Notes under the pieces: model-generated
What the model saw: only the letters and a program-made list of their open reading frames with translations
What the model was told of the DNA's origin: nothing
Database searches by the model: none
Assembly: GCA_024102795.1 (NCBI GenBank)
Contig: JAGFJK010000088.1
Location: forward strand, 1 to 64,000
Direction of reading: 5' to 3'
DNA length: 64,000 bases
From: Pirellulaceae bacterium
GTDB taxonomy: Bacteria; Planctomycetota; Planctomycetia; Pirellulales; Pirellulaceae
In this document: positions 42,425 to 58,154 of the stretch, piece after piece
How positions within the stretch are numbered: position 1 is the stretch's first letter
How the letters are laid out: every line of letters starts with the position of its first letter
Translations under genes and position numbers: made by a program

Positions 42425-44005
42425 TCATCTGTCCGCACGATCAGCATTGGCAGGCATGAACAGCCCCAATCCAAAATGGCAAGAGTGCCCGACACAAATT
42501 GGACCGGAAACCGGTTCAGGAAATATCAAGCGAAACCGGTAGCCTGGTAAAACGGCGCGTGCTCGCGTTTCGCGGCGGCGCTGTCGTTGTTCAGGTGGCT
42601 CGTGAATCGCAACCCATTCTTCCTCGGTCTCGTCGGATTGTCGTGCTAGTTCGGGGACCGGAAGCCCGGCTCCGAGTAAGAGTTTTTCCAGGAGCCGCTC
42701 CGGTGTTTCCCCAGGCCGAAGTCGACCGTTCTTGCGGAATCGTTTTCGGCCGCCAGGAATCACAAACGGCGTTGCGTTAGTCCAAGTGGTCGCTAGCGGA
42801 ACGTCAAAACTTAGGCCGCGCGGTGCTGGCGTGTCGAATGGCAGGGGAACAAACCGGAGTTGCCATTCGTCGCGGCGTTCATCTGCTGCACGTTGACGTT
42901 CGAAGCGCCACGAGCAAGGGCGCTCGGAAGCGGCCAATAACGCCTCGACTTCTTCCGGCCGAAACGGTTCGCGCCGGAAGCAGACCAACCGTGTTGGCTG
43001 CCCGAACTCATCGGGGATCAGAGCAAAATAGACGTGGGCATGGCTTAAGAGGGGCGATCCGGAACCTGACTTCCCGCTGAACAGCGCGAAATCGTCGCGC
43101 ACATCTGGCGGTAGCAACCAAAACTTGGCCTTGCGGTCACCAGTTAAGAGTCGCGCAAGTTCCTTCAATGCTGTGCCTCGAAACCGTTCTGTAATACGAA
43201 TCCAATCACGCACTCGCGGATAGACCCGACCTCCAACGGCAAACTGGACGCTTTGTAAGATGGAAGTGAAACGTGAGGTCGCAATAGAAACCGGTTGTAT
43301 CGCCGGTCGTTGAGGAAGCGTGGTGAAATGCCATACAGCGCCGGGTGGAACTGGATGACCGCTTACCAATTTGTCGTCGCTGGCTGCCAGCAGGGAATCG
43401 AGGTTCAGCGGCTGGCCGGGCTTCGGAACGAGCACTGGCGATTGGTTCGTCGCCGTCGCACTCAGTCGGCAGTTCATGCCGATTCCTGTCGGCAATTGTT
43501 CGATGCGGCGAATAATGCAGAGCGATTCAGCCCGGCCGAAATACAGCATGCGACGAAGTAATTCATCGAGGAGCCGTTGCAACGATGTCGATAAGGCGAC
43601 GCTCGGCCACGACCAAAACACGGAGTCATTGGAAGAAATCGCTCGGCACACGTCGGGAACCAACGTCGTCATCGATTTCTTGTACGCAGCATCCTTCTTA
43701 CCCTTGGCTGTCCATTCCACCCCCGTTCTGTGGTATTGCCGAACTGAAGGTTCCGCTCGCCAAGTTAACGAAGGAACCGAAAATTCAGGAACTGCGATTG
43801 AGAGTTGACCGAGCAACTCATCTCGCATTGCGGTGTCGTCGTCGCCTGTTTCTCTGCTGTATTGAATCCAGCGAGCGGCAAGCGCACGAAGGAGCCGCCA
43901 CGGGGACGGAGGCCACTCGCCGTGTCGATCTTCAAATGAATTTTGTTTCCACCGCGTGGCGTGAAATCGGCCAAGCGGGAAACGCTGCTGAAGAATGAGA
44001 GGCAT
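42425..44005 (-). CDS. csb2: Type I-G CRISPR protein Csb2 (Cas5/Cas6-like)
   Basis: A 526-aa protein of the Csb2 family from type I-G (formerly I-U) systems. The N-terminus has the hallmark FPLGRFHATRWKQNSFEDRH followed by GEWPPSPWRLLRALAARWIQ. A RAMP-type glycine-rich end is suggested near VLPGYRFRLIFPEPVSGPIC. In this subtype Csb2 fills the Cas5 role and probably processes the crRNA (Cas6 function). It is the last gene of the four-gene effector operon, 11 nt after csb1. The base composition is less GC-rich than the core genes of the window. Confidence 0.9.
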   Translation of the reverse strand: MPLILQQRFPLGRFHATRWKQNSFEDRHGEWPPSPWRLLRALAARWIQYSRETGDDDTAMRDELLGQLSIAVPEFSVPSLTWRAEPSVRQYHRTGVEWTAKGKKDAAYKKSMTTLVPDVCRAISSNDSVFWSWPSVALSTSLQRLLDELLRRMLYFGRAESLCIIRRIEQLPTGIGMNCRLSATATNQSPVLVPKPGQPLNLDSLLAASDDKLVSGHPVPPGAVWHFTTLPQRPAIQPVSIATSRFTSILQSVQFAVGGRVYPRVRDWIRITERFRGTALKELARLLTGDRKAKFWLLPPDVRDDFALFSGKSGSGSPLLSHAHVYFALIPDEFGQPTRLVCFRREPFRPEEVEALLAASERPCSWRFERQRAADERRDEWQLRFVPLPFDTPAPRGLSFDVPLATTWTNATPFVIPGGRKRFRKNGRLRPGETPERLLEKLLLGAGLPVPELARQSDETEEEWVAIHEPPEQRQRRRETRARAVLPGYRFRLIFPEPVSGPICVGHSCHFGLGLFMPANADRADR

Positions 44006-44016
44006 GTATCAGACTC

Positions 44017-45267
44017 CTACCCGTTGTCTTCTTCCTCGTCCTGGTCATCCGAGACAGCTTCCGTTTCCTTGCCCGGCTTGAACAGTTCGTTGGCCGGATA
44101 ATAGACATCGGCTTGAGCAGCAGGGAATTTGCAGCTCTCGATTGACGTCTTGAGGTTGAGGCTTGCGAACAGATTCCGTGCGAGTTGTTGAGACGCCGCG
44201 ACGGCCTTTGCTGCGGCGTCTTTTATCACTGCTTTGTCATCCGGATTCGTATCCGCTGTCTCGGTGTTCGCCGTTGACGAGGCCGGAACCAAGCCATCTT
44301 CCGTTGAGACCGTGACGCTCTCGCACTGTAGAAAACATTGTGTCCGATATCGAAACGGCCGCTTCACCAACTGTTCAATCTTCCAGATAGCAAGTTCCAA
44401 CAGCAGCCGCTTTTGTTCGGAGTTTAAGCCGTCTTTGCCGCGACCGTAGGAACGCAGCAATCCCAGGTCAAGAATGAATGTTGCCCGAATCTCCTCGGCG
44501 GTTTCTTCATCGACAGAGAAAATCGGCTGGCCAGACGTCGTCTTTTGGAGCCGATCGAATTTGACGCCGGTACGCCCGACGCGAGCCGCGCCAAATGCTT
44601 CCAGATGCGCCGTCAACAACCGGCTGATCTTGATTTGTTCCTTGGCGAACATGACGCCATGCACCAAAGAGTTCGGATCGAGATTGAAGATGGTCGTATA
44701 GATGTTCCACCATGTCTCAGGCGGAATGAAGTACGTCTTGTCCTTCTTGACCTCGATAATTTTGAAGTCCTTGCGCAACTGCTCCCGCAACGATTCCGCC
44801 TCAGGTTCCCCGTTCGAGAGTTTGCGGGCATCGAGAAAATAATCGGAAGCGAGGCGGTGCCCCTCGGAAAAAGTGCTGGCCACAACTGAGTCCTTCGTGG
44901 AGTCAGCTTTCGGAACAATTGCGCCGTCCTTCGTTTCGAATTCGCTGTCGGTCACACAGCGCACGAACGGCAACCCGGCCAAGTCGGGATGCAAGTCAAT
45001 CGTCCCTTCACCTGCGAGGCAGACTTTCTCCAAATGATTCGCCATGCTGGCCGGGCTGTCCACGATGCAGACCTTTTCCTTGTACTTGCGGCCATCGGCC
45101 GCGATCCGCGGTGCGTCGTAGATCACATGCCCTACTTCGGGGAAACCTGCCGGCTGGAAGCGGTCGGTGTCACCGACTGGGACGAGACGCGCGGTCACGA
45201 TCAAGCAGACCGGACCATTGGCGTCGAGCAGTTGTTCTTGAAGCGGCTTCGTCAAATCGAGAGCCAT
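44017..45267 (-). CDS. csb1: Type I-G CRISPR protein Csb1 (Cas7)
   Basis: A 416-aa RAMP protein of the Csb1/Cas7 family, which forms the helical backbone of the crRNA complex. Visible family wording: ARLVPVGDTDRFQPAGFPEV, then VCIVDSPASMANHLEKVCLA, SVVASTFSEGHRLASDYFLD, and GAARVGRTGVKFDRLQ. The C-terminus is acidic (SDDQDEEEDNG). It lies 19 nt after csx17 and 11 nt before csb2 in the same operon. Length fits the family. Confidence 0.92.
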   Translation of the reverse strand: MALDLTKPLQEQLLDANGPVCLIVTARLVPVGDTDRFQPAGFPEVGHVIYDAPRIAADGRKYKEKVCIVDSPASMANHLEKVCLAGEGTIDLHPDLAGLPFVRCVTDSEFETKDGAIVPKADSTKDSVVASTFSEGHRLASDYFLDARKLSNGEPEAESLREQLRKDFKIIEVKKDKTYFIPPETWWNIYTTIFNLDPNSLVHGVMFAKEQIKISRLLTAHLEAFGAARVGRTGVKFDRLQKTTSGQPIFSVDEETAEEIRATFILDLGLLRSYGRGKDGLNSEQKRLLLELAIWKIEQLVKRPFRYRTQCFLQCESVTVSTEDGLVPASSTANTETADTNPDDKAVIKDAAAKAVAASQQLARNLFASLNLKTSIESCKFPAAQADVYYPANELFKPGKETEAVSDDQDEEEDNG

Positions 45268-45286: not shown

Positions 45287-47365
45287 TTAACGATTTCGGG
45301 ATGGTTGGAGCCAGCGTTTCAGGCCGTTGGTTACGTCGCGGTTCGACATGGGCATCAGCAGCGCCGCCGCGACCCGTTCACTATCGGCGACAAGCCCATT
45401 GGGAGGCATTACGATCGCGCGTCCAACAGCGAGGTAACGATCACGCACAATTTGTATTGTCTCGTCAATCGCACCGAAGCGGAGCAATTGAAAAAGACGC
45501 CGCAAAAGATTCGCCTTCGGCAACTGATCGGAGCGAAACAACGGCACACCGTCTTCCACGGACAAATTGAGTTCTTTGTCTGCATGGAAGAGCGGCCGAA
45601 CGACTGTGTGTAACATTGCAGTGCCATCACCCGCGCGGAGCGGTTCATCAGCATGCGCATTTCCGGTGGCTTCTCGCGTCGGTTGCGACCAGTCAATCAG
45701 CGACAATGGTGGAATCCATTTTGTGATTTCCTCAAAGTCGAGGTCGCCATGTTTGCTGAGGAATCGTTGAATCAACGTGGCCGAGACGAAGCGTGTCCCA
45801 GCAAGCGGCGAACGCGGCAATCCCTCTGCATCAATAAGACGCCGTTGCGCTACTTCGAGCAGCATCTGCAACGGGTCGCCTGTTCCCCAGACTGCCTGAG
45901 CCGGTCGCGTTGCCGGCAGCGAAGAACGCCACTTTCCAGCACGCGCAGTGAGCGTTACTCCAAAAATATTCGCCAACATTGGAATGGGGCTGTTACCAAA
46001 TTGCCAACCGACTGACGCGATGGATCTCGCAATTGCAATCTCTGGCGGCAGGGTTGGCCAGGCATGGCCGAACCAAGCGGGAGGAAGTGGAGGAAGGGGT
46101 GTACATCGTTCACGCAAACTTTTGCTGCGATCCATGCGTGCTTGAACGGACGCCAAACGCAACAATAGTTGCTGCCAACGTTCGGCATCCTCGGGGCGTT
46201 CCGCGAGTTGTACAATTGCAGCTTCGACGGGTCCGCGCAAACCGACAAATTTCCCCCGTTGTTTGGAATCGCGTGGTTCAAATGGCAACCGGTCCATCCA
46301 GCCATTTTCGATGAGTTGTACCAACAATGGTGAAGCGGACTGGTGGACAATGCCGAAGGTTGGTGATCCGGCAATGGTAGCGGCTTGGATGCGCTGCCGC
46401 GGAATTGCTTCGTAGACTTGTGACGAGGTTGTTTGTCGAAATTCGAAGCGAACGAACTCGCTGATGCCACTATCAACCCCAGCATCCATTGCCGCGACGG
46501 CAAATTCGTGAGGAGCTTGTGCCGGTCGTCCTCCCAGCTTCGCAAGCCCGCGCTGAAAAAGGCAGCGAACTTCCGTGATCGTTGCCGGGAAAGCCCACAG
46601 CGGTGCCCAAAACTCCGCTCGCGACATGCCGATCTCACCATCTGTTTCCGGCTGACTCGGTTCGGAAACGAATGGAAATGCCGCGTAGGGGCGTGCTCGT
46701 GAACCAAGTCGTCGGTTTACGCCGCCGACAAGCAAGAACGCGCCCTCCGTTGCCAGCAATTGCAGCCACGGCGACATTTGCCCTTCTCGAAACCAACTTT
46801 GTCCGCTGTTAAAGGTTTTGTTCGCGTAGACAAACCAAGTGCCGCCGTTATTGAGATCCGGAAGGCTTGCGTCGAGCGTTCCATTGAGGGCTGCATCGAG
46901 CCATTGTCCACTTTCGGGCTTTTCTAGCAGTTTGGTTGCATCTTTGAATGCCTTGGCGAGGTCACGCTTACCGACATTGCCGCCGGTTCCCAACACTGGG
47001 TTAAATCGGTTTCGTCCGGTTCCAACAACGTGAGCGTCAAGCAACCGCACTTCAGCCACTGATCGCTCGCTTCTTTCTCGCCAAATCCCAGTCGATGATT
47101 TGGCCTTGGTGTCGGCCTTCTGGATATTGCCCCACCAACGTTCGTAAGTAGTCGGCTGCCAACCTTTTTGCAGGAAACTTTTTATGGCGACAAGATCGGC
47201 ACTCGAATCATCTGACAAGATGAGGAATCGTTCGCTACGCCAACAAGCACGCACTTTGTTCCAATGCTGAGAGACGGCCGCTAGAAGCCCCAACGCTGCC
47301 AGGTAGTTTCCCAGGCAGTCGGCGTTCAATCCATTAAATGGAATCACGGATAGACGTCGATTCAT
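45287..47365 (-). CDS. csx17: Type I-G CRISPR protein Csx17 (Cas8-like large subunit)
   Basis: A 692-aa protein of the Csx17 family, the large subunit specific for type I-G. The N-terminus NGLNADCLGNYLAALGLLAA matches the family pattern of a conserved glycine/leucine-rich start, and the mid-protein has SFLLVGGVNRRLGSRARPYA-like text (actual order EGAFLLVGGVNRRLGSRARP). It would recognise the PAM and recruit Cas3. Its start overlaps the cas3 stop by 4 nt (ATGA), so translation is coupled. No frameshift or internal stop was seen. Confidence 0.9.
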   Translation of the reverse strand: MNRRLSVIPFNGLNADCLGNYLAALGLLAAVSQHWNKVRACWRSERFLILSDDSSADLVAIKSFLQKGWQPTTYERWWGNIQKADTKAKSSTGIWRERSERSVAEVRLLDAHVVGTGRNRFNPVLGTGGNVGKRDLAKAFKDATKLLEKPESGQWLDAALNGTLDASLPDLNNGGTWFVYANKTFNSGQSWFREGQMSPWLQLLATEGAFLLVGGVNRRLGSRARPYAAFPFVSEPSQPETDGEIGMSRAEFWAPLWAFPATITEVRCLFQRGLAKLGGRPAQAPHEFAVAAMDAGVDSGISEFVRFEFRQTTSSQVYEAIPRQRIQAATIAGSPTFGIVHQSASPLLVQLIENGWMDRLPFEPRDSKQRGKFVGLRGPVEAAIVQLAERPEDAERWQQLLLRLASVQARMDRSKSLRERCTPLPPLPPAWFGHAWPTLPPEIAIARSIASVGWQFGNSPIPMLANIFGVTLTARAGKWRSSLPATRPAQAVWGTGDPLQMLLEVAQRRLIDAEGLPRSPLAGTRFVSATLIQRFLSKHGDLDFEEITKWIPPLSLIDWSQPTREATGNAHADEPLRAGDGTAMLHTVVRPLFHADKELNLSVEDGVPLFRSDQLPKANLLRRLFQLLRFGAIDETIQIVRDRYLAVGRAIVMPPNGLVADSERVAAALLMPMSNRDVTNGLKRWLQPSRNR

Positions 47366-50148
47366 GGCTGCACCTGCTTCGCCTTCCCTGGCCGCTTGCT
47401 TGCGCGGATGTCGGCGGCAACGAGAATCGCTTCATAAAACGCCAGCGCGAACGGTCCCAGGCTTTGCGGTTCGCCGTCGGGAATCACATCGCTGCTAGAT
47501 TTTGCGTTGGGCATCGCGGTGCCAAGCAGATCGGCGACAACTTCTGTCCAACTCGGGCTCACCATTTCGAAGGCCATGCCATCGTCGTCCCAGACACCGT
47601 GTGCGCCGAGGTGTTTAGGCTCGAAATGCATCGTGGCAGTATTCGAGAAATAGCCGGGAATGGGCGGCAGTGTGTCGTTGGCTTTCAGACCGAAAACCTC
47701 GTCGGATTCCCATGTGCTCCGCAGCACAGTTCGAACTTTGCCGTGGTGCGAAGCAATCAGAAACACTGCGAGTGCGGAAAGTTGTTTATCCCCAGACAGC
47801 CAAGCATCCCAGGCGGCCAGGGCACTGGCCGCTTCATGTCGTACTCGCGGTGTGAATTTCACCCGCAGCAGTCGCCGTAATTGCTTCGCATCTTCCTTTG
47901 CCAACGACCTATTCATCCAGATTTCGCGCACATCCGGGAACTTAGCCCAGACCACACTGGTTCCATCGGCATCCGATGGTGGATTCCATTTTGGCAGCCA
48001 GTCTCCGAGCAACTGGTGAAAAATCGCTGTTTCCGAATTCGAAAGCAATTCCTGAATCCGATCTCGCACTCGCCCTGCGAATGAATGTACGGCTCTTTGC
48101 CAGCGCGGCAGTGCTTTTCCCCAATCGTGCCAATGCGCCGCGATCTGAAGGGCTTGCGCGACTGCGTCAGAGGGTCGAAGCGCGGCCACCAATGTCGCCA
48201 CATCGAGATTCACATCGGCAAGATGATTGGGTAACGGATACCAAAGGTCAGTTTGGCTGTCAGGTTCGTCGGCTAGGCCGACATTTTCTTTCGCATCTAC
48301 AGCTTGCAGTGTTGTTGGTTTGTCATTGCTGACACCAGTCCAGCCCAACTCATCTGAGTATCCGCCGGCGGACAACGGCAACATTAACGTCATCCCAGGC
48401 CAAATGTCCTTTGCGCTACGTCGCTCCCATCGATTGATTTCGGCGTTCCATTCCCACGCACCTCCTTTGGTTCCAAGAAACCGACGCAGTTCGAAAAACG
48501 GGACCGCGCAAAGTTCGTCACGATTGGGCGGTTGTTCGTCCAGACGCCACGCGTGCTTTGGGGAAAAGTCGCGCCAAAATACTTGTGCATCCACATTTCG
48601 ATCCGAGTCGCGCACGAATTGCGAGACATTGGTGAATCCACCGGCCAAATCGTGGTCAGTTCCAAATAGCTCCAGCAAATCGTCTGGGCGAATGACGCAT
48701 TCAGCCGCAACTTGCAAGGCATCGCGGCTTATATCGGACTGGCTCACTTGATCCAACGCGTCGCGATATTCCTCTCCGGCTCCCATCGCCTCCTGAACTT
48801 CAGTTAGCAATCGCTGCCCGATGTCGATAGCGGCCTTGTCATAAGGGCCGATTCGCTTGGCGTTGGGACTATCGGGTTTGTTCTCCCCGTCCCGCTCTTC
48901 TTTCGGCCGCCAAAACGTGGCGAGTGCATTCGGTTGTCGTCCTTCTCGGTTCAGTCGCCCTAATCGTTGCACGACCGAAGACCAAGGTGCGATTTCGCTC
49001 CACAACCGCACTGAGGAAATGTCGAAGCCAGCTTCGACGACCTGGGTCGAGACAATCACCAACCCTGGACTTCCTGGTACTGCTCCGGTTTCTCGATCTA
49101 CCTGAGACGCGAACGCCTCGACCTGTTGAAGTTGACGTTTCCGGTCACCGGAACGAAAGCGACCGTGAATCAGACAAAACGCAGGAACTGGCCCTTTTCG
49201 CCGTCGTGCCGGCTTGCTCGCTTCTGCCTGTAACTCGCCAAACATTTTTTTCGCCGCCGGCACCGTGTTGAATACCAACAAGGAAAGTCGGCCGACGCCA
49301 TGTATCGCGTGTTCATCCAATATCAGCGACGGTTTCGGACGATCTTTAACGACGGCAATTGCCTTGGGAGCTCGCAACCGGGTCAAAATTGCTGGCGACT
49401 GCAGATCGTCCGCCGATAGTTCGAGTTTCGTTCCCGGCAGGACATGCCAGTCTCGTCGGTCGCGTGTATCGAGAAAGGTATCGCCAAGCGTGGCCGACAT
49501 CCACAGAAAACGAGACGGCTTGGCTCGCGACCACAGTTTTTCGCCAAATGCTGCGAGTTGAGCTGTGGTCAGCAAGCCACTCCCCATTAGCTGAGTTTCA
49601 TCCATCACCCAGAGACAATCGTTGTTCAGCAATCCAAAGTGTACGGGCCAGCGATATCTGGACATTCCGTACCCGCGATTGAGCGCTCGTGACAGTAACA
49701 TGTCCTGAGTGCCGATCAGGATGGCGTCCCGTTCTGGCCACAACGCCCAATCGGTTTGTTCCTCGCCGCCAAGCAACAGATAGACCGCGGCGGGGTAGTC
49801 GCCAAGGTCGCCGTCTGGTCGCGACCAATTGGGGTATTGTTCTTTCGCCTCCTCGGCGAGCATCCTAAGTCGATTAAGCCAATCAATAGCGACGCGATGC
49901 GTTTGCTCGACAAGCACTCGCATTGGCAAGCAATACACAAGGCGGCGAGGCGTACTATCACGATGAGTCTTGCAAAAACGCCGTCGCCAAATCCAAGCCA
50001 GGATCGTCGCCGCCGTTTTCCCCAAGCCGGTTGGCACATCCAACAGTGATGGTAACGAATCAGCGAGCGCAAGACGTTCCTGATATGGCAACGGGTCGTT
50101 GCCATTGGTTGCGCGTCTGAACATGGCTTTGAATTGTTCTGCAGACAT
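47362..50148 (-). CDS. cas3: Cas3 helicase-nuclease with C-terminal HD domain (type I-G)
   Basis: A 928-aa Cas3. The SF2 helicase comes first: Walker A VPTGLGKTA (GLGKT 41-45), DETQ in motif II (about 182), MSATLGD for motif III, VEAGFDISSVRLWSEIAPWS for motif V and QRLGRLNREG for motif VI. An HD nuclease domain lies at the C-terminus, with HWHDWGKALPRWQ near 670 and a further SHHGK near 800; this helicase-HD order is characteristic of type I-G. All key residues appear intact, so the interference machinery looks functional. It is the first gene of the effector operon and overlaps csx17 by 4 nt. No cas4, cas1 or cas2 lies near it. Confidence 0.93.
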   Translation of the reverse strand: MSAEQFKAMFRRATNGNDPLPYQERLALADSLPSLLDVPTGLGKTAATILAWIWRRRFCKTHRDSTPRRLVYCLPMRVLVEQTHRVAIDWLNRLRMLAEEAKEQYPNWSRPDGDLGDYPAAVYLLLGGEEQTDWALWPERDAILIGTQDMLLSRALNRGYGMSRYRWPVHFGLLNNDCLWVMDETQLMGSGLLTTAQLAAFGEKLWSRAKPSRFLWMSATLGDTFLDTRDRRDWHVLPGTKLELSADDLQSPAILTRLRAPKAIAVVKDRPKPSLILDEHAIHGVGRLSLLVFNTVPAAKKMFGELQAEASKPARRRKGPVPAFCLIHGRFRSGDRKRQLQQVEAFASQVDRETGAVPGSPGLVIVSTQVVEAGFDISSVRLWSEIAPWSSVVQRLGRLNREGRQPNALATFWRPKEERDGENKPDSPNAKRIGPYDKAAIDIGQRLLTEVQEAMGAGEEYRDALDQVSQSDISRDALQVAAECVIRPDDLLELFGTDHDLAGGFTNVSQFVRDSDRNVDAQVFWRDFSPKHAWRLDEQPPNRDELCAVPFFELRRFLGTKGGAWEWNAEINRWERRSAKDIWPGMTLMLPLSAGGYSDELGWTGVSNDKPTTLQAVDAKENVGLADEPDSQTDLWYPLPNHLADVNLDVATLVAALRPSDAVAQALQIAAHWHDWGKALPRWQRAVHSFAGRVRDRIQELLSNSETAIFHQLLGDWLPKWNPPSDADGTSVVWAKFPDVREIWMNRSLAKEDAKQLRRLLRVKFTPRVRHEAASALAAWDAWLSGDKQLSALAVFLIASHHGKVRTVLRSTWESDEVFGLKANDTLPPIPGYFSNTATMHFEPKHLGAHGVWDDDGMAFEMVSPSWTEVVADLLGTAMPNAKSSSDVIPDGEPQSLGPFALAFYEAILVAADIRASKRPGKAKQVQP

Positions 50149-50303
50149 CGTGCCCTACACTCGTTTGCCTGGGCCAGCTGGCCTTGCTACTCAATGGCGG
50201 CTAATGCCGACCCGTGATTCTCTATGCATCCACCCAATGATGCGACCAGCGTACAAATCAGCTTGGACACCTTTGGTCCAACTCGGCGGAAAAAACAGGG
50301 AAA

Positions 50304-50513
50304 TCACCTGAGTTGCGCGGGCACGACCCTTCGCTTTCGAAGGGAAACCAACCGCCAGAGGATTGTTTGTTCGTCGTCACTGCACTTGTCAGACAACTTC
50401 ACCGCCGAAAGGAACTCCTGCCGCAGTTCGGGGTCGCATAGCATTCGATCAATCGAGCACTTACGTTCGCGCTGAAAGGCGAGCCAGTGGTCGCGTAGGC
50501 TGTCGTCGTTCAT
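50304..50513 (-). CDS. 69-aa partner of the sigma-like gene
   Basis: A 69-aa charged helical protein (LRDHWLAFQRERKCSIDRML, DPELRQEFLSAVKLSDKCSD). Its ATG overlaps the stop of the sigma-like gene (ATGA at 50510-50513), so they are translationally coupled. Size and position are compatible with a small anti-sigma or co-regulator, although no zinc motif is present. It ends 155 nt upstream of cas3 on the same strand, so it may be read into the cas operon. No family was recognised. Confidence 0.65.
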   Translation of the reverse strand: MNDDSLRDHWLAFQRERKCSIDRMLCDPELRQEFLSAVKLSDKCSDDEQTILWRLVSLRKRRVVPAQLR

Positions 50514-51073
50514 GATTTGGGTTCCTTCTTGACGAGGGCAATCAGACGCGGGTCGTGTCGCAGGCGGTTATGGGCACGGCAGCGCCAGCTCTTCGCCGTG
50601 CTGCGGCAGACCCCAAGCTCGCGAGCAGCATCAGCAATCGTCAACCGCTGAAGATCGCATAGCTCGATGATGCGCTGGTGATCGAGCGGAAGTTCGCTCA
50701 GCACCTGTTGAACCGCGTCGAAGGCGGTACAATTGCTGGGTGACAGTTTTTCCCGGGAAGTAATGGCTGACGGCTCGTCCAGGGCCTGCAGCTGCGGGCA
50801 CCGCCGCCTGTAATTTCGTGCGTAGAGCTGCGCTGCTCGCAGCAGCCAAGCTCGCGGGTTCTGGATCTCTTTGCTGTCAGGGCGCTGGGCAAACGCATAG
50901 AGTGCATCGCACAAGATGTCGTCGGCAACATGGGGACGAAGCGTCTGCCAACAAGCGATCTTGGCGCGCACGGCGTCGACGTCGGCCTGACGAATATCTG
51001 CTCTTTGGGGCTCGGTTGGCAATTCTGGCCTCCCTTTTCGTCGAGTGCAGTGGAACACCAGATAGTGGCGCAA
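50510..51073 (-). CDS. Sigma-70-like (ECF) regulator upstream of the cas operon
   Basis: A 187-aa protein. The C-terminal half is a clear sigma region 4: VLSELPLDHQRIIELCDLQR, LTIADAARELGVCRSTAKSW, RCRAHNRLRHDP. The N-terminal half has region-2-like text (ADDILCDALYAFAQRPDSKE, ARNYRRRCPQ) but is shorter and less typical than housekeeping ECFs. It may act as a dedicated sigma factor for the cas operon downstream, or as an element-encoded regulator. It overlaps the 69-aa gene (ATGA). A mini-CRISPR unit lies about 90 nt upstream on the same strand. Confidence 0.82.
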   Translation of the reverse strand: MRHYLVFHCTRRKGRPELPTEPQRADIRQADVDAVRAKIACWQTLRPHVADDILCDALYAFAQRPDSKEIQNPRAWLLRAAQLYARNYRRRCPQLQALDEPSAITSREKLSPSNCTAFDAVQQVLSELPLDHQRIIELCDLQRLTIADAARELGVCRSTAKSWRCRAHNRLRHDPRLIALVKKEPKS

Positions 51074-51125
51074 GCGGCGCAGTTCGATTCAATTAGAGGT
51101 TAGGAATTGACATACGATAGGCCGC

Positions 51126-51153
51126 ATTGTAGCGTAGCTATCAGCAACCACAA
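51126..51153 (-). promoter_or_regulatory. Candidate sigma-70 promoter for the sigma-like gene
   Basis: On the minus strand TTGTGG and TACAAT are 16 bp apart, and the -10 element ends about 50 nt before the start at 51073. It lies just after the degenerate CRISPR-like repeat. This is a consensus-type guess only. Confidence 0.3.
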
Positions 51154-51161
51154 CCTCCCAA

Positions 51162-51270
51162 GCGTTCCGCCATTTCAACAAATTGGCGGCCCAATTGAGG
51201 AGATTCCATTAGTGGTTGCAGACTAGAGACTTACGTCTCAATCCGCAGTCATCCGACTGCGGCCCCATTC
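51162..51270 (-). CRISPR. One-spacer mini-CRISPR: full repeat, 37-nt spacer, degenerate repeat
   Basis: Minus strand. The 36-nt unit at 51270-51235 begins GAATGGGGCCGC, has a central perfect 8-bp hairpin (CCGCAGTC, loop GGAT on this strand, GACTGCGG) and ends ATTGAGAC, like the 8-nt handle of type I repeats. A 37-nt segment follows (51234-51198). Then comes a second unit (51197-51162) starting CAATTGGGCCGC and ending GGCGGAACG-like, which keeps a hairpin (CCGCCAATTT / AAATGGCGG, one bulge) with different stem bases. Spacer length and repeat length are normal for type I-G. Only one spacer is present. It may be a collapsed array or a dedicated guide RNA. Confidence 0.55.
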
Positions 51271-51310
51271 GGCACCTGTCGCAGGCATGGAAACGTCCGC
51301 GACAGGTGCC
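51271..51310. repeat. 12-bp perfect hairpin abutting the mini-CRISPR
   Basis: GGCACCTGTCGC / GCGACAGGTGCC pairs perfectly over a 16-nt loop and touches the first repeat directly. It could terminate transcription coming from the plus strand or be part of a leader. The rest of 51074-51416 holds no gene. Confidence 0.65.
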
Positions 51311-52049: not shown

Positions 52050-52301
52050 TTGGACAACGCATCTCAATCGGCAGTTTCGGGTTCTGTAACGGTTCATTCA
52101 CAAGCATCGCCGGCGGCAGCACACGACGCCCTACGCCTCCACCCGTGGATCACGCAGGAGCTGTTTGTCGATTCGCGGCGGGTTTGGTCGGCGGCGTATG
52201 GGCGCGAGCTTTCCGATGAGGAAGTGATCGAAATCCTGCTCAACATCCGTCGCCTGGCCGAAGCCCTGCTGTACGCCAGCAAGAATAGGAGAGAAGCATG
52301 A
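52050..52301 (+). CDS. 83-aa protein coupled to the recombinase (module 2)
   Basis: Counterpart of 32949-33200 with the same TTG start and GGAGGG site. Conserved wording LHPWITQELFVDSRRVWSAA and YGRELSDEEVIEILLNIRRL; most differences are silent or conservative. ATGA overlap with the recombinase start. The same candidate roles apply (directionality factor or partner). Confidence 0.78.
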   Translation: MDNASQSAVSGSVTVHSQASPAAAHDALRLHPWITQELFVDSRRVWSAAYGRELSDEEVIEILLNIRRLAEALLYASKNRREA

Positions 52302-53890
52302 ACGTGGTGATTTGGGCGCGGGTCTCGTCGCGCGAACAACGAGAGGGATATTCCATCGACGCCCAGCTGCGTGCCAACCGCGAACGGGCGGAACGCGCGG
52401 GCTGGAAGGTGGTGCGCGAATTCGTGGTCGCGGAGTCGGCCAAGCGCGGCGCTGAGCGGACGGCGTTCAACGAGATGTTCTCATGGGTCAAGGCGAACGC
52501 CAAGCGCGAGAAGATCAAGGCGATCCTGAGCCACAAGCTCGACCGGGTGTGCCGCAACATGCGGGACGCGGTGCGCTTACAGGAGTTGGAAGATGCCTGC
52601 GGCGTGCAGCTCGCGTTCGTTGAAAACCAGTTCGGTCCCGGCGCGGCCGGCGCGCTCTCGTTCAACGTGATGGCCGCGGTCGCGCAGTATTACAGCGACA
52701 ACCTGCGGTCGGAAGTACTCAAGGGCATGGACGAGAAGGTTCGCCAGGGCTGGCCGACGGGGTTAGCGCCTTTCGGCTACATGAACACCAGCGACCGCGA
52801 AGCTCCGGTGCGGCCTCACCCCGAAAAGGCAAACACGGTTCGCCATATCTTCGACCTCTATTCAACCGGCAGCCACACCTTCAAGAGCCTGGCCGATCAG
52901 CTCCAGCAGGAGGGGCATACGTTCCGCAAAAGTCAGCCGCGATTCCATCGGACGGCGCTGTCGTACATCCTGAAGAACCGCTTCTACATCGGTGAGTTGC
53001 GCCGCAACGGGCAAGTTTTCGAAGGGCGATACGAACGCCTGATCGAGCGCGGCACGTTCGACGAGTGCCAGGACGTGCTCTGCGGCCGCAACCGCCGCAC
53101 CGGCAAGCCGAGACTCGCCTTCGCAGGCGGTATCTTCAAATGTGCCTATTGCGGCCATGCGATCACAGGTGAAGTCATCCGTCGCAAGCTGCGCGGCGGA
53201 GGCGTGCGCGAGCACGTTTACTATCGCTGCGCCAACAATGACCGCGGGCCAGACCATCCCAAGCTTCGTTGGAAAGCAGGTGACCTCGAACGGCTGATCA
53301 TGGACGACCTGTCGAAACTGCAGATTCCGAACGCCGACCATATCGAGTGCCTCCACGCTTCGCTGCTGGGCTCGCTCGACGATGTGTCGGCGCACCAACG
53401 GCACCAGAGCGCCATTCTGAAGAAACGCAGTTCGGAACTCGCTGGAATGCAAGATCGCCTGCTCAATGCGTACCTGGCGGGCACGGTGGATGAAGCGACG
53501 TACCAGACCAAGTCGAATGAGCTCAAAGGCGAAGCCGCACGCGTCGAGGAGGCGATGGGCGGGCTGGGCGACCTCTCGCCGGCGCGGCGCGAACTGGCCG
53601 TCGCCGTATTCGACTGGTCGCAAAGGGCGACGGATTTCTGGCAGGGTTCGACAGATGCGGCCCAACGGCGAATACTCAACGCGGTCTATTTGAACCGCAC
53701 CTTGAGCGACGTAACTCTAGTCACCACAAAGAGAAAGCCGTTCGACGCTCTCGCCGAACGGCTAACTTTGGTGAAAAGTCGGGGTGACTGGCGTTCGTTT
53801 GAACCGTTGGTCGTAGCATACGTCGATACCGTCCTGTCGCCAAGTCCCGAAGTCGTTATGGCGACGCGGGTTGTGCGGCTGTCGGCGTAG
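52298..53890 (+). CDS. Large serine recombinase (module 2)
   Basis: A 530-aa paralogue of the module 1 recombinase. The catalytic domain (S10 in WARVSSREQ), Recombinase domain and zinc ribbon (FKCAYCGHAITG ... YYRCANN) are intact and the first 150 residues are almost identical. After RKPFDALAERL the proteins diverge; here the tail is SFEPLVVAYVDTVLSPSPEV and ends at RVVRLSA, lacking the ELPPAHADSLAE segment. The stop is only 2 nt from the convergent response regulator stop, so the 3' end was probably replaced during integration or a deletion. Activity may still be possible, since the catalytic and DNA-binding cores are present. Confidence 0.92.
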   Translation: MNVVIWARVSSREQREGYSIDAQLRANRERAERAGWKVVREFVVAESAKRGAERTAFNEMFSWVKANAKREKIKAILSHKLDRVCRNMRDAVRLQELEDACGVQLAFVENQFGPGAAGALSFNVMAAVAQYYSDNLRSEVLKGMDEKVRQGWPTGLAPFGYMNTSDREAPVRPHPEKANTVRHIFDLYSTGSHTFKSLADQLQQEGHTFRKSQPRFHRTALSYILKNRFYIGELRRNGQVFEGRYERLIERGTFDECQDVLCGRNRRTGKPRLAFAGGIFKCAYCGHAITGEVIRRKLRGGGVREHVYYRCANNDRGPDHPKLRWKAGDLERLIMDDLSKLQIPNADHIECLHASLLGSLDDVSAHQRHQSAILKKRSSELAGMQDRLLNAYLAGTVDEATYQTKSNELKGEAARVEEAMGGLGDLSPARRELAVAVFDWSQRATDFWQGSTDAAQRRILNAVYLNRTLSDVTLVTTKRKPFDALAERLTLVKSRGDWRSFEPLVVAYVDTVLSPSPEVVMATRVVRLSA

Positions 53891-53892
53891 CC

Positions 53893-55047
53893 CTACCTGG
53901 GCTTCTTGTGCTTCAGGCAATAGCGGCCCGAATTCGTCGGCCCGCTGAACTCCACCTCGTCCGCCAGATCCGTCGCAATGTCACGCTTGATCGTCCGGTC
54001 CGAACAGCCCCACTCGGCCGCTAAGGCGGGGGCTCTCAATTCCGTCCCCTTGGCGAACTGCTCCCGCAGCCATTGCACTCGCGCGGCTTTGCTCTTTTCC
54101 CTCTTTGCAGAACGTCGAGCAGGGACAATACCGTCGGCATCTGTAGGGACACTTGCAGGGACAGAACCAGGGACATTTGCAGGGTCAGGATTGGGCTGAG
54201 GCGTGGCAGTTTTTCCCTGTAGCGACCTGTCCTGCGGCTGGACACTTACTAGTTCCGTGAAATGGTATCCACTGTCGCCGTGGGCGATCACGTCCTCCGG
54301 GCCGCACTCAAAGCCGGCACGAGCTAAGTGTTTTGTGATTCGGCCGCGAAGATTCCGAATGTAACCTGACATCTCGTCTACGTCGCGAGCGAGGATTTTG
54401 GCGAGGGCGCGCCCGGTGAATGACTTGAAGTTTCCGCACCCCAATCGCTCGGCGAAGGCACGAAGTGCCTTTTGATCGTCCTCGCTGGATCGCCCGCTGG
54501 TTATGTTCAAGCCGTGAAATTCGACATGGTCGTCGAAAAAGGCCATAGTGCCTCGCTCCAAATTCTTGAGCGGCGGTCGGGACACTCCACCGTTCGTGGT
54601 CGTTGCCGACCGAGCAGGCGAGCCGACTTGTACACCCAGTTTAGCGAGCAGCTCGAGAATGCACTTGTCGAGAGTCTTTCCAATCGCCTTGAACGGCTTC
54701 GAGACGTGGTCGTCGGCCCCCGATTTCATGACTTCGACGCCCAATTCCGGCCCGTCGTTTCCATGAGCCGTGATCACGATTACCCCCGGTCTTCGGCCCG
54801 CCCCTCGTTGCTTGACGATCTGCTGTAGAAGGTTCAATCCGTTCTGAATTCGGGGAAAGTTGCGACCGGCCCGAACCGGGATTTCGAGGTCGAGGAGGAC
54901 GTAGTCGTATTGGTTCTTGTCGAGCAGTGTTCGGGCAGCTTCGACGCTATCGACGCGGTCGCACCCGTGCTCAAGGGACACGAGAATATCACCTATAGCG
55001 TCAAGGATTTCCGGGTCGTCATCGACTACGAGGGCCTTATAGGTCAT
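53893..55047 (-). CDS. Response regulator with winged-helix and second HTH
   Basis: A 384-aa protein. Residues 1-120 are a receiver domain: acidic pocket D9-D10-D11, phospho-acceptor D53 in YVLLDLEIP, T93 and K117 (SKPF), all intact. The middle (about 165-260) reads like an OmpR/PhoB-type winged helix (GTMAFFDDHVEFHGLNI, DVDEMSGYIRNLRGRITKHL, AHGDSGYHFTE). A low-complexity linker of repeated VPxSVPAxVP follows. A C-terminal region (QWLREQFAKGTELRAPALAA, EWGCSDRTIKRDIA) looks like a second helix-turn-helix. It overlaps the histidine kinase gene by 4 nt. It most likely controls transcription, plausibly of this same operon. Confidence 0.9.
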   Translation of the reverse strand: MTYKALVVDDDPEILDAIGDILVSLEHGCDRVDSVEAARTLLDKNQYDYVLLDLEIPVRAGRNFPRIQNGLNLLQQIVKQRGAGRRPGVIVITAHGNDGPELGVEVMKSGADDHVSKPFKAIGKTLDKCILELLAKLGVQVGSPARSATTTNGGVSRPPLKNLERGTMAFFDDHVEFHGLNITSGRSSEDDQKALRAFAERLGCGNFKSFTGRALAKILARDVDEMSGYIRNLRGRITKHLARAGFECGPEDVIAHGDSGYHFTELVSVQPQDRSLQGKTATPQPNPDPANVPGSVPASVPTDADGIVPARRSAKREKSKAARVQWLREQFAKGTELRAPALAAEWGCSDRTIKRDIATDLADEVEFSGPTNSGRYCLKHKKPR

Positions 55048-56207
55048 TCTTCTGGTTCCTCGGGCGAGTGTGCCGGCAAGACGATAGTGACGGTGGTGCC
55101 GGCGTCTTCGGAACTCTCAATTGAAATCGAACCATCGTGGGCCGCGATATTGCGGCGCGCAATGGGAAGGCCGAAGCCGGTTCCGTAGCCCTTCTTCGTC
55201 GTTCGTCCAGGTACGAAGGCTCGTAACTCCTGGAGGTCAACCGAACTCAGGCCCACGCCGTTGTCCCGAACCGCGATGGCGATCTGACCACTCCCAGTAC
55301 ATGCAGCGTTAAGATGAACAACCCCCTGGCGCGTCGCTTCAGTTCCGATGAGGACCGACTCGTAAGCGTTCTTCAGAACATTAGCGATGGCGACGACGAT
55401 CTGATGCTTGGCGACAACGACGATGGCTCCCTCGTCCAGTGATGTCGTGGCTTTGACTCGCGTAAGGTCGAAACCCGCGGACTGGAGTGCATCACCGGCG
55501 ACGGAAACAGCATCTCGCACTATCGTCGCCAGTTTCTCTGGCGTCCGATCCGCCGCGTCGGTCTGCGCATAATCTCCCATCGCCTCAACGATTTTCTCCA
55601 GATAGGCGAGTCGGTGGGCGACCTTGTCCAACCCGTCGCACATCGTAGTTTCGTCCGGGGTGGGCTTCTTTGCTTCGGCTCGCAGGCGTGTGACGTTCGC
55701 CTTTGCAGACGTAAGCACGCCCCTCAAGTCATGAACCGTCGCCGCAACCGATGCCTCGTATAGGCGGACAGCAAGCGCGCGGGCCTTTTCGCTCACCGCA
55801 CGTCCCTGGGTTGCCCCCAGCAAATCAAATTGAGAAGTGATTTGATCCAGGCCTCGTCGTCGCCCCCCTGATTCCCCTGGGCTTTTTTTTCGCTGGTCTA
55901 CTGCTCGCTGGGCCGCATTGCGAACGTAGCCGTTGGAGTCCTGTGTGAGCCTTGCGGCGAGCGGTATGAAAGGGTCGTCTGGCAGTGCCGAGAGCAGACG
56001 CGCGATTTCTAATCGAACCTCCCACTTTGGATCTGCGCCCAGGAATTCTGCGACGCGAACCGCCAGATCCCGCCGGTGGGCGTCCGCCAAAGCAGTGCCC
56101 AAACCGGCAGCGAGGGCACGGCGCTGCGACCAGGGCATCGAGTCCCTGTCCGCCCTAAGGCCGATCAACGCCTGATCCAGGTCGTCTTGTTCGATTCGTT
56201 CCGGCAT
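55044..56207 (-). CDS. HEAT-repeat sensor histidine kinase (cytoplasmic)
   Basis: A 387-aa soluble kinase with no transmembrane helix. Residues about 30-105 form HEAT-like repeats (LAVRVAEFLGADPKWEVRLE, IARLLSALPDDPFIPLAARL, TQDSNGYVRNAAQRAV). The dimerisation helix has the phospho-acceptor H159 (AATVHDLRGVLTSA). The ATPase domain has N280 (NVLKNAYESV), DNGVG at 315-319 and GTGFGL at 342-347. The input is therefore intracellular, probably a protein or nucleic-acid signal bound by the HEAT part. It shares one base with the stop of the upstream ATPase gene (TGATG) and overlaps the response regulator by ATGA. Confidence 0.92.
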   Translation of the reverse strand: MPERIEQDDLDQALIGLRADRDSMPWSQRRALAAGLGTALADAHRRDLAVRVAEFLGADPKWEVRLEIARLLSALPDDPFIPLAARLTQDSNGYVRNAAQRAVDQRKKSPGESGGRRRGLDQITSQFDLLGATQGRAVSEKARALAVRLYEASVAATVHDLRGVLTSAKANVTRLRAEAKKPTPDETTMCDGLDKVAHRLAYLEKIVEAMGDYAQTDAADRTPEKLATIVRDAVSVAGDALQSAGFDLTRVKATTSLDEGAIVVVAKHQIVVAIANVLKNAYESVLIGTEATRQGVVHLNAACTGSGQIAIAVRDNGVGLSSVDLQELRAFVPGRTTKKGYGTGFGLPIARRNIAAHDGSISIESSEDAGTTVTIVLPAHSPEEPEE

Positions 56208-58114
56208 CAGTACTTGTACCTCTGCTGCCGGAGTTTGAATGCCTCCTCGCCGCCTTCAAGCAACGTAACGATGTGGTTGCGGCACTCATCGACGCTGCCT
56301 TCCTTGTCCACCCAGCCCTTGGAGCCGTTCGACTTAAAGACGAATACTCTGCTGGCATCCCCGAGCACGGGAATGTTCGGGTTGTGCGTTACGAAGATCA
56401 GCTGCCGCTCGCTCTTGACCTCTCGAATCCGGGTTACGACCGTTTCGTAAATGAATCCATTGTCCAAGTTGTCTTCGGGCTGATCGACGAGCAGTGGCCG
56501 GTCACTGTCCATCAGCAGAATTGGCAAGATCGACGTGCATTTCTGACCTTTCGAGATCGACATCGAATCCTTGTAGGTTTCGCCATCCTTCAGTTCAATT
56601 CGGGGCTTGTCGTCCAGGTCCACGGATTCGAGACTTAGCAGGACTTCGCGGTCGCTTAGTGAGTCGATAACCTTGCCAGCCTGGGCAGCGTTGATTCCCG
56701 CGTGGGCCATAAGCCCCTGCGAGTCGCCATTGCTGACAAGTTCTGACAGCGCCCGCGGCGGCACTGACGTTGCGATCTTTTCGGCCACAACATTGTGCTT
56801 TATTTCTGCCCCTCGAAGGGAATTGATCAACAATGATTTGTACGCGCCTATCCCTCCGAACTGTTCGAGGCTCACGCGAACCGTGGGCATTACCTTCGAG
56901 TTAATCTGTTCGACAACCGCTTGGCGAATCGCAAATCGTCGGTCACGTAGGTCGGAGAGCCGTTCCAAGAGGCTGGCGCGGTGACGACGCAGATCGTCGA
57001 GCTGCGCCGTGAGTTCGGTGAGGGTCCGCCGTCTAGCAAGAAGAACGTTACGCTCACGTTCGAGGCGGGCGCGTTCCGTTGCTTGCTCCATCACGGCATC
57101 GTGCTTTTCAACCAGCGTCCGAAATGCCAGTTCCTGTTGGTCATGTGCAGCGGCAAGTTTCGCGTTGACCTGCTCTATGTGCTGGCGAGCTTCTGCCAAT
57201 TGATCCTCAATTCGCCGCAGGGAAATGTCGACAGCGTCCCCGCAGCCACCGAAGCGCCTCGCGAACTCCGAAAGTGCGTTGCCGTTAGGGCCGGAAAGGA
57301 TGTCTTCCGTTAGGTGGGAAGCGGCCTGATCTTGCAGCCACCCACCTTGGGATCGGATGCGTTCTTCGAATTCCGCGAGCGAATCGTCAATGCCGTCGAT
57401 GGCGCGCCGTTCCCTGTCACGCAATGCTTTGGCCGCGTGGGCCTGATCAACCGCTTCCGAGTCTTCACCACCGCTGCCAGTGAACGCCTTGAGCTTTTCC
57501 TCTACGTCTGGCAGCGTGGCGACCTCCTCTCGTATGGTTTCTTGCTTGACCTCGAACGCAAGCAACTGGCTTGCATTTGCGGCGAGCTCGTGCTGCACGT
57601 CCCGCAACTCGTTTTCAATCTCGACGATGGCGTCAGGCTGAAACTTGTCGATCAGCACCAATTGGGACGGTGAACGGTCTGCGATACGTTCCACTTCGTT
57701 TTGACTGAAGATGTCCGCACGAAATACGCTGCCCGACTTCAAAGTGAGCTGCGTAGGCTGCCCATCGGCCGTTAGAACGACCGGCTCCTCGTCCCACGAA
57801 CGAGAGACGATGTACACCAGTCCGTTCTTGGTTTCGATCTCGACTTGAACTCGTCCGCCTGAGAGGTTCTGTTCGACGAGTGAATCAATTCTGCGCCACT
57901 CCTCCGGGTCATCGTCTCGCGACGGCAGGTTGTCGAATGCATATCGAATGAACTCCAGAACCGTCGTCTTGCCTGTTCCACGTCCGCCGATAAAGCAATT
58001 CAACCCGTTGGCAAAGTCCAATCGGAGACCATCGAGGAATCCACCGACAACCGAAACCGACCGGATGCGGTGTGACGTAAGTGGGGATGCAGTAGTTTGG
58101 GATGGCGTTGCCAT
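56207..58114 (-). CDS. SMC/RecF-like AAA ATPase
   Basis: A 635-aa ABC-type ATPase. Walker A GGRGTGKTT lies at 43-51 after GLNCFI; a long coiled coil occupies about 170-400 (VKQETIREEVATLPDVEEKL, RRHRASLLERLSDLRDRRFA). The C-terminal half has the signature SKGQKCTSILPILLM, Walker B with PLLVDQPEDNLDN (near 540) and the switch histidine in FVTHNPNIPVLGD. This is the layout of RecF/TrlF-type ATPases common in defence operons. It probably senses or clamps DNA ends or interacts with the Res/Mod proteins. ATG 58114 is used; the frame extends 8 codons further. It lies 40 nt after res and shares a base with the kinase start. Confidence 0.9.
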   Translation of the reverse strand: MATPSQTTASPLTSHRIRSVSVVGGFLDGLRLDFANGLNCFIGGRGTGKTTVLEFIRYAFDNLPSRDDDPEEWRRIDSLVEQNLSGGRVQVEIETKNGLVYIVSRSWDEEPVVLTADGQPTQLTLKSGSVFRADIFSQNEVERIADRSPSQLVLIDKFQPDAIVEIENELRDVQHELAANASQLLAFEVKQETIREEVATLPDVEEKLKAFTGSGGEDSEAVDQAHAAKALRDRERRAIDGIDDSLAEFEERIRSQGGWLQDQAASHLTEDILSGPNGNALSEFARRFGGCGDAVDISLRRIEDQLAEARQHIEQVNAKLAAAHDQQELAFRTLVEKHDAVMEQATERARLERERNVLLARRRTLTELTAQLDDLRRHRASLLERLSDLRDRRFAIRQAVVEQINSKVMPTVRVSLEQFGGIGAYKSLLINSLRGAEIKHNVVAEKIATSVPPRALSELVSNGDSQGLMAHAGINAAQAGKVIDSLSDREVLLSLESVDLDDKPRIELKDGETYKDSMSISKGQKCTSILPILLMDSDRPLLVDQPEDNLDNGFIYETVVTRIREVKSERQLIFVTHNPNIPVLGDASRVFVFKSNGSKGWVDKEGSVDECRNHIVTLLEGGEEAFKLRQQRYKY

Positions 58115-58154
58115 TAGTCTGGTCCTTGCCCAACGCACAACAGTGCGGCGTGCC

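Follow-up and report, generated by a model that had tools for sequence, protein, structure and literature searches.

The experimental cases of CreR, a guide encoded by a mini-CRISPR, reportedly belonged to subtypes I-B, I-E and V-A. In reviews, guides of this kind (Liu et al. 2023, Cell Host Microbe) are described in type I and type V-A systems (PMC12737573, PMC12948488). For the published CreA guides, seed positions 1-5 and 7-11 of the spacer are needed and changes at positions 6 and 12 are tolerated (PMC8501985, PMC9458426); the first of the two repeats, psi-R1, keeps the handle, while the second, psi-R2, is degenerate at those eight bases (PMC9458426). Type I-G is characterised by a TTN PAM, an 8-nt handle, repeat cleavage 4 nt past the hairpin and the flipping-out of every 6th base (PMC9638904). 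In type III-E, the sigma factor CASP-sigma is thought to activate defence genes, and is freed by protease cleavage of Csx30 (PMC10028731).

The element analysed here is located in a window of 64,000 nucleotides, i.e. the whole stretch of DNA examined, from a Pirellulaceae bacterium. An earlier note on this DNA had pointed out a pair of hairpin units near a type I-G effector operon; the pair is found at 51163-51274, with about 37 nt between its members. From its sequence, the element is very probably a creR-type gene of the type I-G system, whose guide would repress its own sigma-cas operon without cutting it.

The guide element and its target

The same genome contains, on contig C158, a normal type I-G array with repeat CTTTCCGCCGTTGATCAACGGCGGCCCCATTGAAGC, along with cas2 and a cas4-cas1 fusion. 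Both units align to this repeat, which is related and not identical to them, on the forward strand of the window: the unit at 51163-51201 scores 42 on the plus strand and 8 on the minus strand, that at 51239-51274 scores 32 and 4, respectively, and the plus-strand scores were reached by none of 1000 shuffles. Since the match is confined to the plus strand, the guide gene is divergent from the sigma-cas operon, and not on the strand of the sigma and cas genes, where it had been placed before.

On this strand, psi-repeat 1 (51163-51201, 29 positions identical to the array repeat) is made up of a hairpin, CCCA and the 8-nt 5' handle ATTGAGGA. The 37-nt spacer GATTCCATTAGTGGTTGCAGACTAGAGACTTACGTCT (51202-51238) begins directly after the handle; the first spacer of the genome's own I-G array, counted manually, is also 37 nt long. 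Psi-repeat 2 (51239-51274, 26 identical positions, plus strand only) keeps a perfect 8-bp hairpin and GCGGCCCCATT, with CCCCATT retained, and has lost the handle, ATTCGGCA being found in its place. This is the arrangement of a CreR guide: one spacer is flanked by degenerate repeats of the cognate I-G type, the first with its 5' handle and the second without. The roles of the two units are therefore the reverse of those initially assigned: the one called intact is psi-repeat 2, the one called degenerate is psi-repeat 1, and the "ATTGAGAC end" ascribed to the repeat is the reverse complement of the junction between spacer and psi-repeat 2, not a repeat end. According to the published I-G rule (PMC9638904), the Csb2 cut in psi-repeat 1 is predicted 4 nt past the hairpin.

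A 12-bp perfect inverted repeat followed by AACTTCTTTAT (51271-51310, plus strand) is located 3' of psi-repeat 2 and may act as a terminator, with a weak T tract; it is absent from the output of the terminator scan. The search of Rfam gave no match above threshold.

The target of the guide is found at 51083-51122 (plus strand), with a TTC PAM at 51083-51085 and the protospacer starting at 51086. The spacer starts with GATTCCATTAGTGGTT, and the operon leader reads TTC-GATTCAATTAGAGGTT at this point: spacer positions 1-5, 7-11 and 13-16 match the target (51086-51101), positions 6 and 12 differ, and hardly any match is found farther on. All 14 pairable positions within the first 16 are thus matched, and the two mismatches coincide with the bases flipped out in a type I-G crRNA. 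A match over seed positions 1-5 and 7-11, next to a PAM and at the head of a cas operon, is what characterises a CreR guide. An exact-pattern search of the 8.56-Mb genome detected the seed pattern GATTCNATTAGNGGTT in the spacer and in the target only. Shuffled spacers reached a best score of 11 on both strands of the 64-kb window (exceeded in 0 of 2000 cases) and of 10 in the intergenic region (exceeded in 0 of 20000), and the runner-up site in the window has 11 of 14 positions matched and no TTN PAM. The earlier note had proposed a CreA/CreR-type repression; with the strand corrected, this is strongly supported by the PAM and seed at the operon head, their uniqueness in the genome and the CreA-like decay of the two repeats.

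Two other explanations of these data have to be considered. One spacer and two imperfect repeats are also what a nonfunctional, decayed stub of an ordinary array would look like, and such a last stub had been suggested earlier; against it, the seed match at the head of the operon is unique, is flanked by a PAM and fails only at flipped bases, and guides of this design are found in distant I-G loci too. We regard a stub as extremely unlikely. Alternatively, the likeness of spacer and leader could derive from an incidental local duplication, with no guide-target pair involved, since the two sites share a strand and are separated by 116 nt. The first matching base, however, is precisely the first base of the predicted spacer, a TTN PAM precedes the match, and positions 6 and 12 are exactly the ones that do not pair. 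Moreover, in six other guide-bearing loci (L092, L108, L112, L116, L152 and L216) guide and target are on different strands, which direct duplication does not account for; for the window too this origin is hardly credible. A guide directed against the operon leader remains by far the preferred reading.

Candidate promoters were read from the sequence on both strands. A possible operon promoter (51126-51153, minus strand, TTGTGG-16-TACAAT) has a weak -35, and the protospacer sits just downstream of its -10. A possible promoter of the guide gene (51107-51135, plus strand, TTGACA-17-TAGCGT) has a weak -10 and overlaps the protospacer, which contains its -35. Both fell under the threshold of the promoter scan; the position of the target in the operon leader is certain, while the promoter there is a weak consensus match only.

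The sigma-cas operon and its genome

The first gene of the operon (50510-51073, minus strand, as all those that follow) encodes an ECF-type sigma factor, matching Sigma70_r4_2 and Sigma70_r4 above the Pfam cut-offs, as well as sigma-family profiles; its start is likely a TTG near 51022, after AGGGAGG. A search with this protein across the phylum gave weak ECF matches only. The second gene (50304-50513), whose start overlaps the sigma stop codon (ATGA), encodes an all-helical protein of 69 aa, 41-54% identical to small proteins located before other cas3g genes. The helicase-nuclease gene cas3g follows (47362-50148; TIGR02621, 618.7 bits), in which Walker A, SAT, motif VI and the HD motifs can all be read, and then csx17/cas8g1 for the large subunit (45287-47365; TIGR04113, 352 bits), csb1/cas7g (44017-45267; PF09617 above cut-off, TIGR02570 just below) and csb2 (42425-44005; TIGR02165, 148 bits), a cas5-cas6 fusion coding for the guide-processing enzyme. 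The type I-G effector set, cas3g, csx17/cas8g, csb1 and csb2, is thus complete in the operon, csb1 being assigned by its Pfam cut-off.

Neither adaptation genes (cas4-cas1, cas2) nor an array are found at the operon, which is not, in itself, a complete type I-G locus. The genome, 8.56 Mb in 519 contigs, contains one I-G effector operon according to searches for csx17 and csb2. The description of the operon as adaptation-less therefore holds for the locus and not for the genome, where C158 supplies the module described above. It had been stated beforehand that a CreR guide would be refuted if cas1 and cas2 were found elsewhere next to a normal array whose repeat differs. Formally, this is what C158 contains, yet the idea stands, because the competitor of a CreR guide is just such a canonical array.

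Two further regions of this genome may be mentioned. Near the guide, at 52298-58138 of the window, genes are found for a large serine recombinase, for a histidine kinase and a response regulator, and for an AAA ATPase of the TrlF/Ppl-like kind, which suggests a mobile or defence-rich region. On contig C133 (L007, 3028-15137), a type III-like locus encodes Csx7/gRAMP-like RAMP proteins and a reverse transcriptase-Cas1 fusion, and contains a long array, the repeat of which is a different one.

Recurrence in other type I-G loci

Type I-G loci were gathered via csx17 searches, and the region before cas3g was scanned in 90 of them for a handle-like octamer, followed 8 nt on by a spacer, and a seed match flanked by TTN. 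In 10 of the 90 loci the number of leading matches was 11 or more, compared to a mean of 0.3 loci when wrong offsets (n=10) were used. One of the ten (L044, on the cas strand) looks spurious. L044 has the small-protein gene and a psi-repeat pair, with no detectable target. The remaining nine are the window, L166, L176, L112, L092, L108, L095 (probable), L116 and L152, and the loci detected by the scan belong to Planctomycetota, Chloroflexota and Alphaproteobacteria. Of the further I-G loci reached via the small protein, three (L216, L219 and L220), tested only afterwards, carry a guide as well; since L216 ends inside cas3g, its subtype rests on the partial cas3g and the small protein. The guide architecture is thus present in 11 I-G loci besides the window, L095 being only probable. 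A further locus, L222, was left out of the count, as it has a guide-like pair with no cas gene confirmed alongside.

The spacers of the other loci are unrelated, and each of them matches its own leader. The guide is opposite to cas3g in every guide locus except L095. In psi-repeat 2, a GGCC(C/T)CATT-like core is kept in nearly all guides, and the handle has drifted in each. The element is patchy in its distribution, because no guide was detected in L084, L085 and L087, the closest Csx17 relatives of the window. In L154 (G034), an element resembling the guides is found before cas3g, its seed match being shorter, at 9 paired positions, and an ORF which appears HNH-like by eye occupies the usual position of the sigma gene near it.

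An ECF-like sigma gene precedes cas3g in seven loci (window, L152, L166, L176, L216, L219 and L220); L217, which begins inside its sigma gene, is outside this tally. A guide is present in 7 of 7 complete sigma loci, with the target roughly 60-110 nt before the sigma start, in a sample that has some bias, as the window was given and it was the guides that drew attention to L152 and L166. For L176, L216, L219 and L220, the small protein was the first lead, and guides were then found in 4 of 4. The usual order after the target is ECF sigma gene, gene for a helical protein of about 66 aa, and cas3g. The small protein is intact in the window, L152, L176 and L216, and also in L044 and L217; it is frame-disrupted in L219 and L220 and absent from L166. 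Among L219, L220, L221 and L222 the small ORF is apparently frameshifted or decayed, the sigma frame being still open in L219 and L220; the disruption may be either an assembly error or real decay.

No sequence match of the small protein was found in Pfam, PHROG or PDB; its predicted model contains four helices (pLDDT 82) and has no fold match with an E value below 0.001. The motif of the small protein also occurs inside longer planctomycete proteins, sometimes twice (e.g. L194, G114, 1009-2007), one of which also has a GIY-YIG domain.

The position of the sigma gene bears on a third alternative, that the element is a guard similar to CreTA or CrePA, in which the guide would silence something harmful, be it a leader-encoded RNA toxin or a response driven by the sigma factor, and loss of Cascade would be punished. 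The anatomy of the guide is the same as that of CreA, and the first gene past the target is a regulator rather than a cas gene. On the other hand, no toxin-like ORF was found under the target, where the sigma gene is located instead, a toxin in the form of RNA being still conceivable; the small ORF and the cas genes directly follow the sigma gene; and in sigma-less relatives the target lies 100-285 nt before cas3g itself, and autorepression of the cas genes therefore fits. A guard of this kind is considered quite improbable, and autorepression of the operon is retained.

A sigma-driven promoter motif that the leader of the sigma gene would have in common with the stretch upstream of cas3g was also searched for, and in 6 of 7 loci the best shared stretch is no better than those of shuffles; in L176, 5 of 150 shuffles were equally good. 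The motif of the window, GCTGATNNNTACGCT, has five copies in the genome, two of them within repetitive coding DNA. Separately, a palindromic element, GGTGTCCAA-N9-TACG, is found at 50262-50295 of the window (minus strand), where it has TTGGAC...GTCCAA arms. Its exact core is present in the window, L039, L149 and L155, 77-123 nt before cas3g, and looser copies occur in L150 and others; it is found both with and without the sigma gene, and is possibly a promoter or operator of cas3g.

Proposed mechanism and relation to known systems

The preferred reading, a guide which represses its own operon, is based on repeat kinship, layout, PAM, seed, uniqueness and recurrence, all of which are features of the sequence; from these we infer transcription, processing, loading, binding without cutting, and repression. 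The patchy distribution of the element, the two promoters below the scan threshold and the missing target in L044 count against this reading. The guide would be transcribed on the plus strand, and Csb2 would cut both psi-repeats, releasing an RNA of about 73 nt made up of the handle ATTGAGGA, the 37-nt spacer and the psi-repeat 2 hairpin. The processed RNA would be loaded onto Cas7g/Cas8g, and its short pairing would suffice for binding, being too short for cutting by Cas3. Sitting just downstream of the likely operon promoter, the complex would block initiation or elongation, and so repress the sigma, small-protein, cas3g, csx17, csb1 and csb2 genes; the guide may repress itself too, as its -35 is inside the protospacer. 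Repression would be lifted when ordinary crRNAs from the C158 array compete for the complex, or when anti-CRISPR proteins disable it, and induction of the cas genes would then include that of the sigma factor, whose gene leads the operon.

A more elaborate version can be put forward, tentatively and with the odds somewhat against it. I-G Cascade loaded with the guide would hold down a dedicated ECF sigma factor, and once phage crRNAs or anti-CRISPRs take Cascade away, the released factor would positively drive the cas operon along with other genes, such as those of the array, the adaptation module or further defences, the protein of about 66 aa being a partner or an inhibitor. If true, this would be an RNA-guided sensor of the state of Cascade wired to a CRISPR-specific sigma factor.

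Neither a CreR of type I-G nor an ECF sigma factor tied to type I-G was found in the literature searched, which lacked most subscription journals. Within these sources, the element appears, by sequence, as a CreR-like guide in subtype I-G with no earlier report, coupled to a sigma/small-protein module of which no description was found. The data would extend guide-based self-repression of CRISPR systems to type I-G, providing testable guide-target pairs in about a dozen genomes, and bring out a recurrent ECF sigma and small-protein module before cas3g that comes with the guide. They also indicate that an effector operon need not be a relic just because adaptation genes and long arrays are missing from it.

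As in CreR, as described in the reviews, a mini-CRISPR guide partially matches the front of a cas operon, and the autorepression, here predicted, would be relieved by crRNAs and anti-CRISPRs; unlike in CreR so described, the effector is of type I-G and the target precedes an ECF sigma gene. With CreA of CreTA the element shares the psi-R1/psi-R2 pattern, the TTC PAM and the seed at positions 1-5 and 7-11 with 6 and 12 free (PMC8501985, PMC9458426), but no toxin gene was found here and the system is I-G, not I-B or I-F. The I-G effector of Thioalkalivibrio sulfidiphilus has the same subunits, the same TTN PAM, a handle of the same length and 5+1 base flipping (PMC9638904); that study is not known to include a regulatory mini-CRISPR or sigma gene. 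Finally, in the CASP-sigma/Csx30 system of type III-E an ECF sigma factor is likewise encoded within the CRISPR-Cas locus (PMC10028731); neither Csx29 nor Csx30 was seen in the present operon. If the sigma factor described here acts on the cas genes, the occupancy of Cascade would be linked to a CRISPR-specific sigma factor, a layout of control so far seen only in the quite different form of type III-E: unlike CASP-sigma, the sigma gene would here be repressed by an RNA-guided DNA-binding complex.
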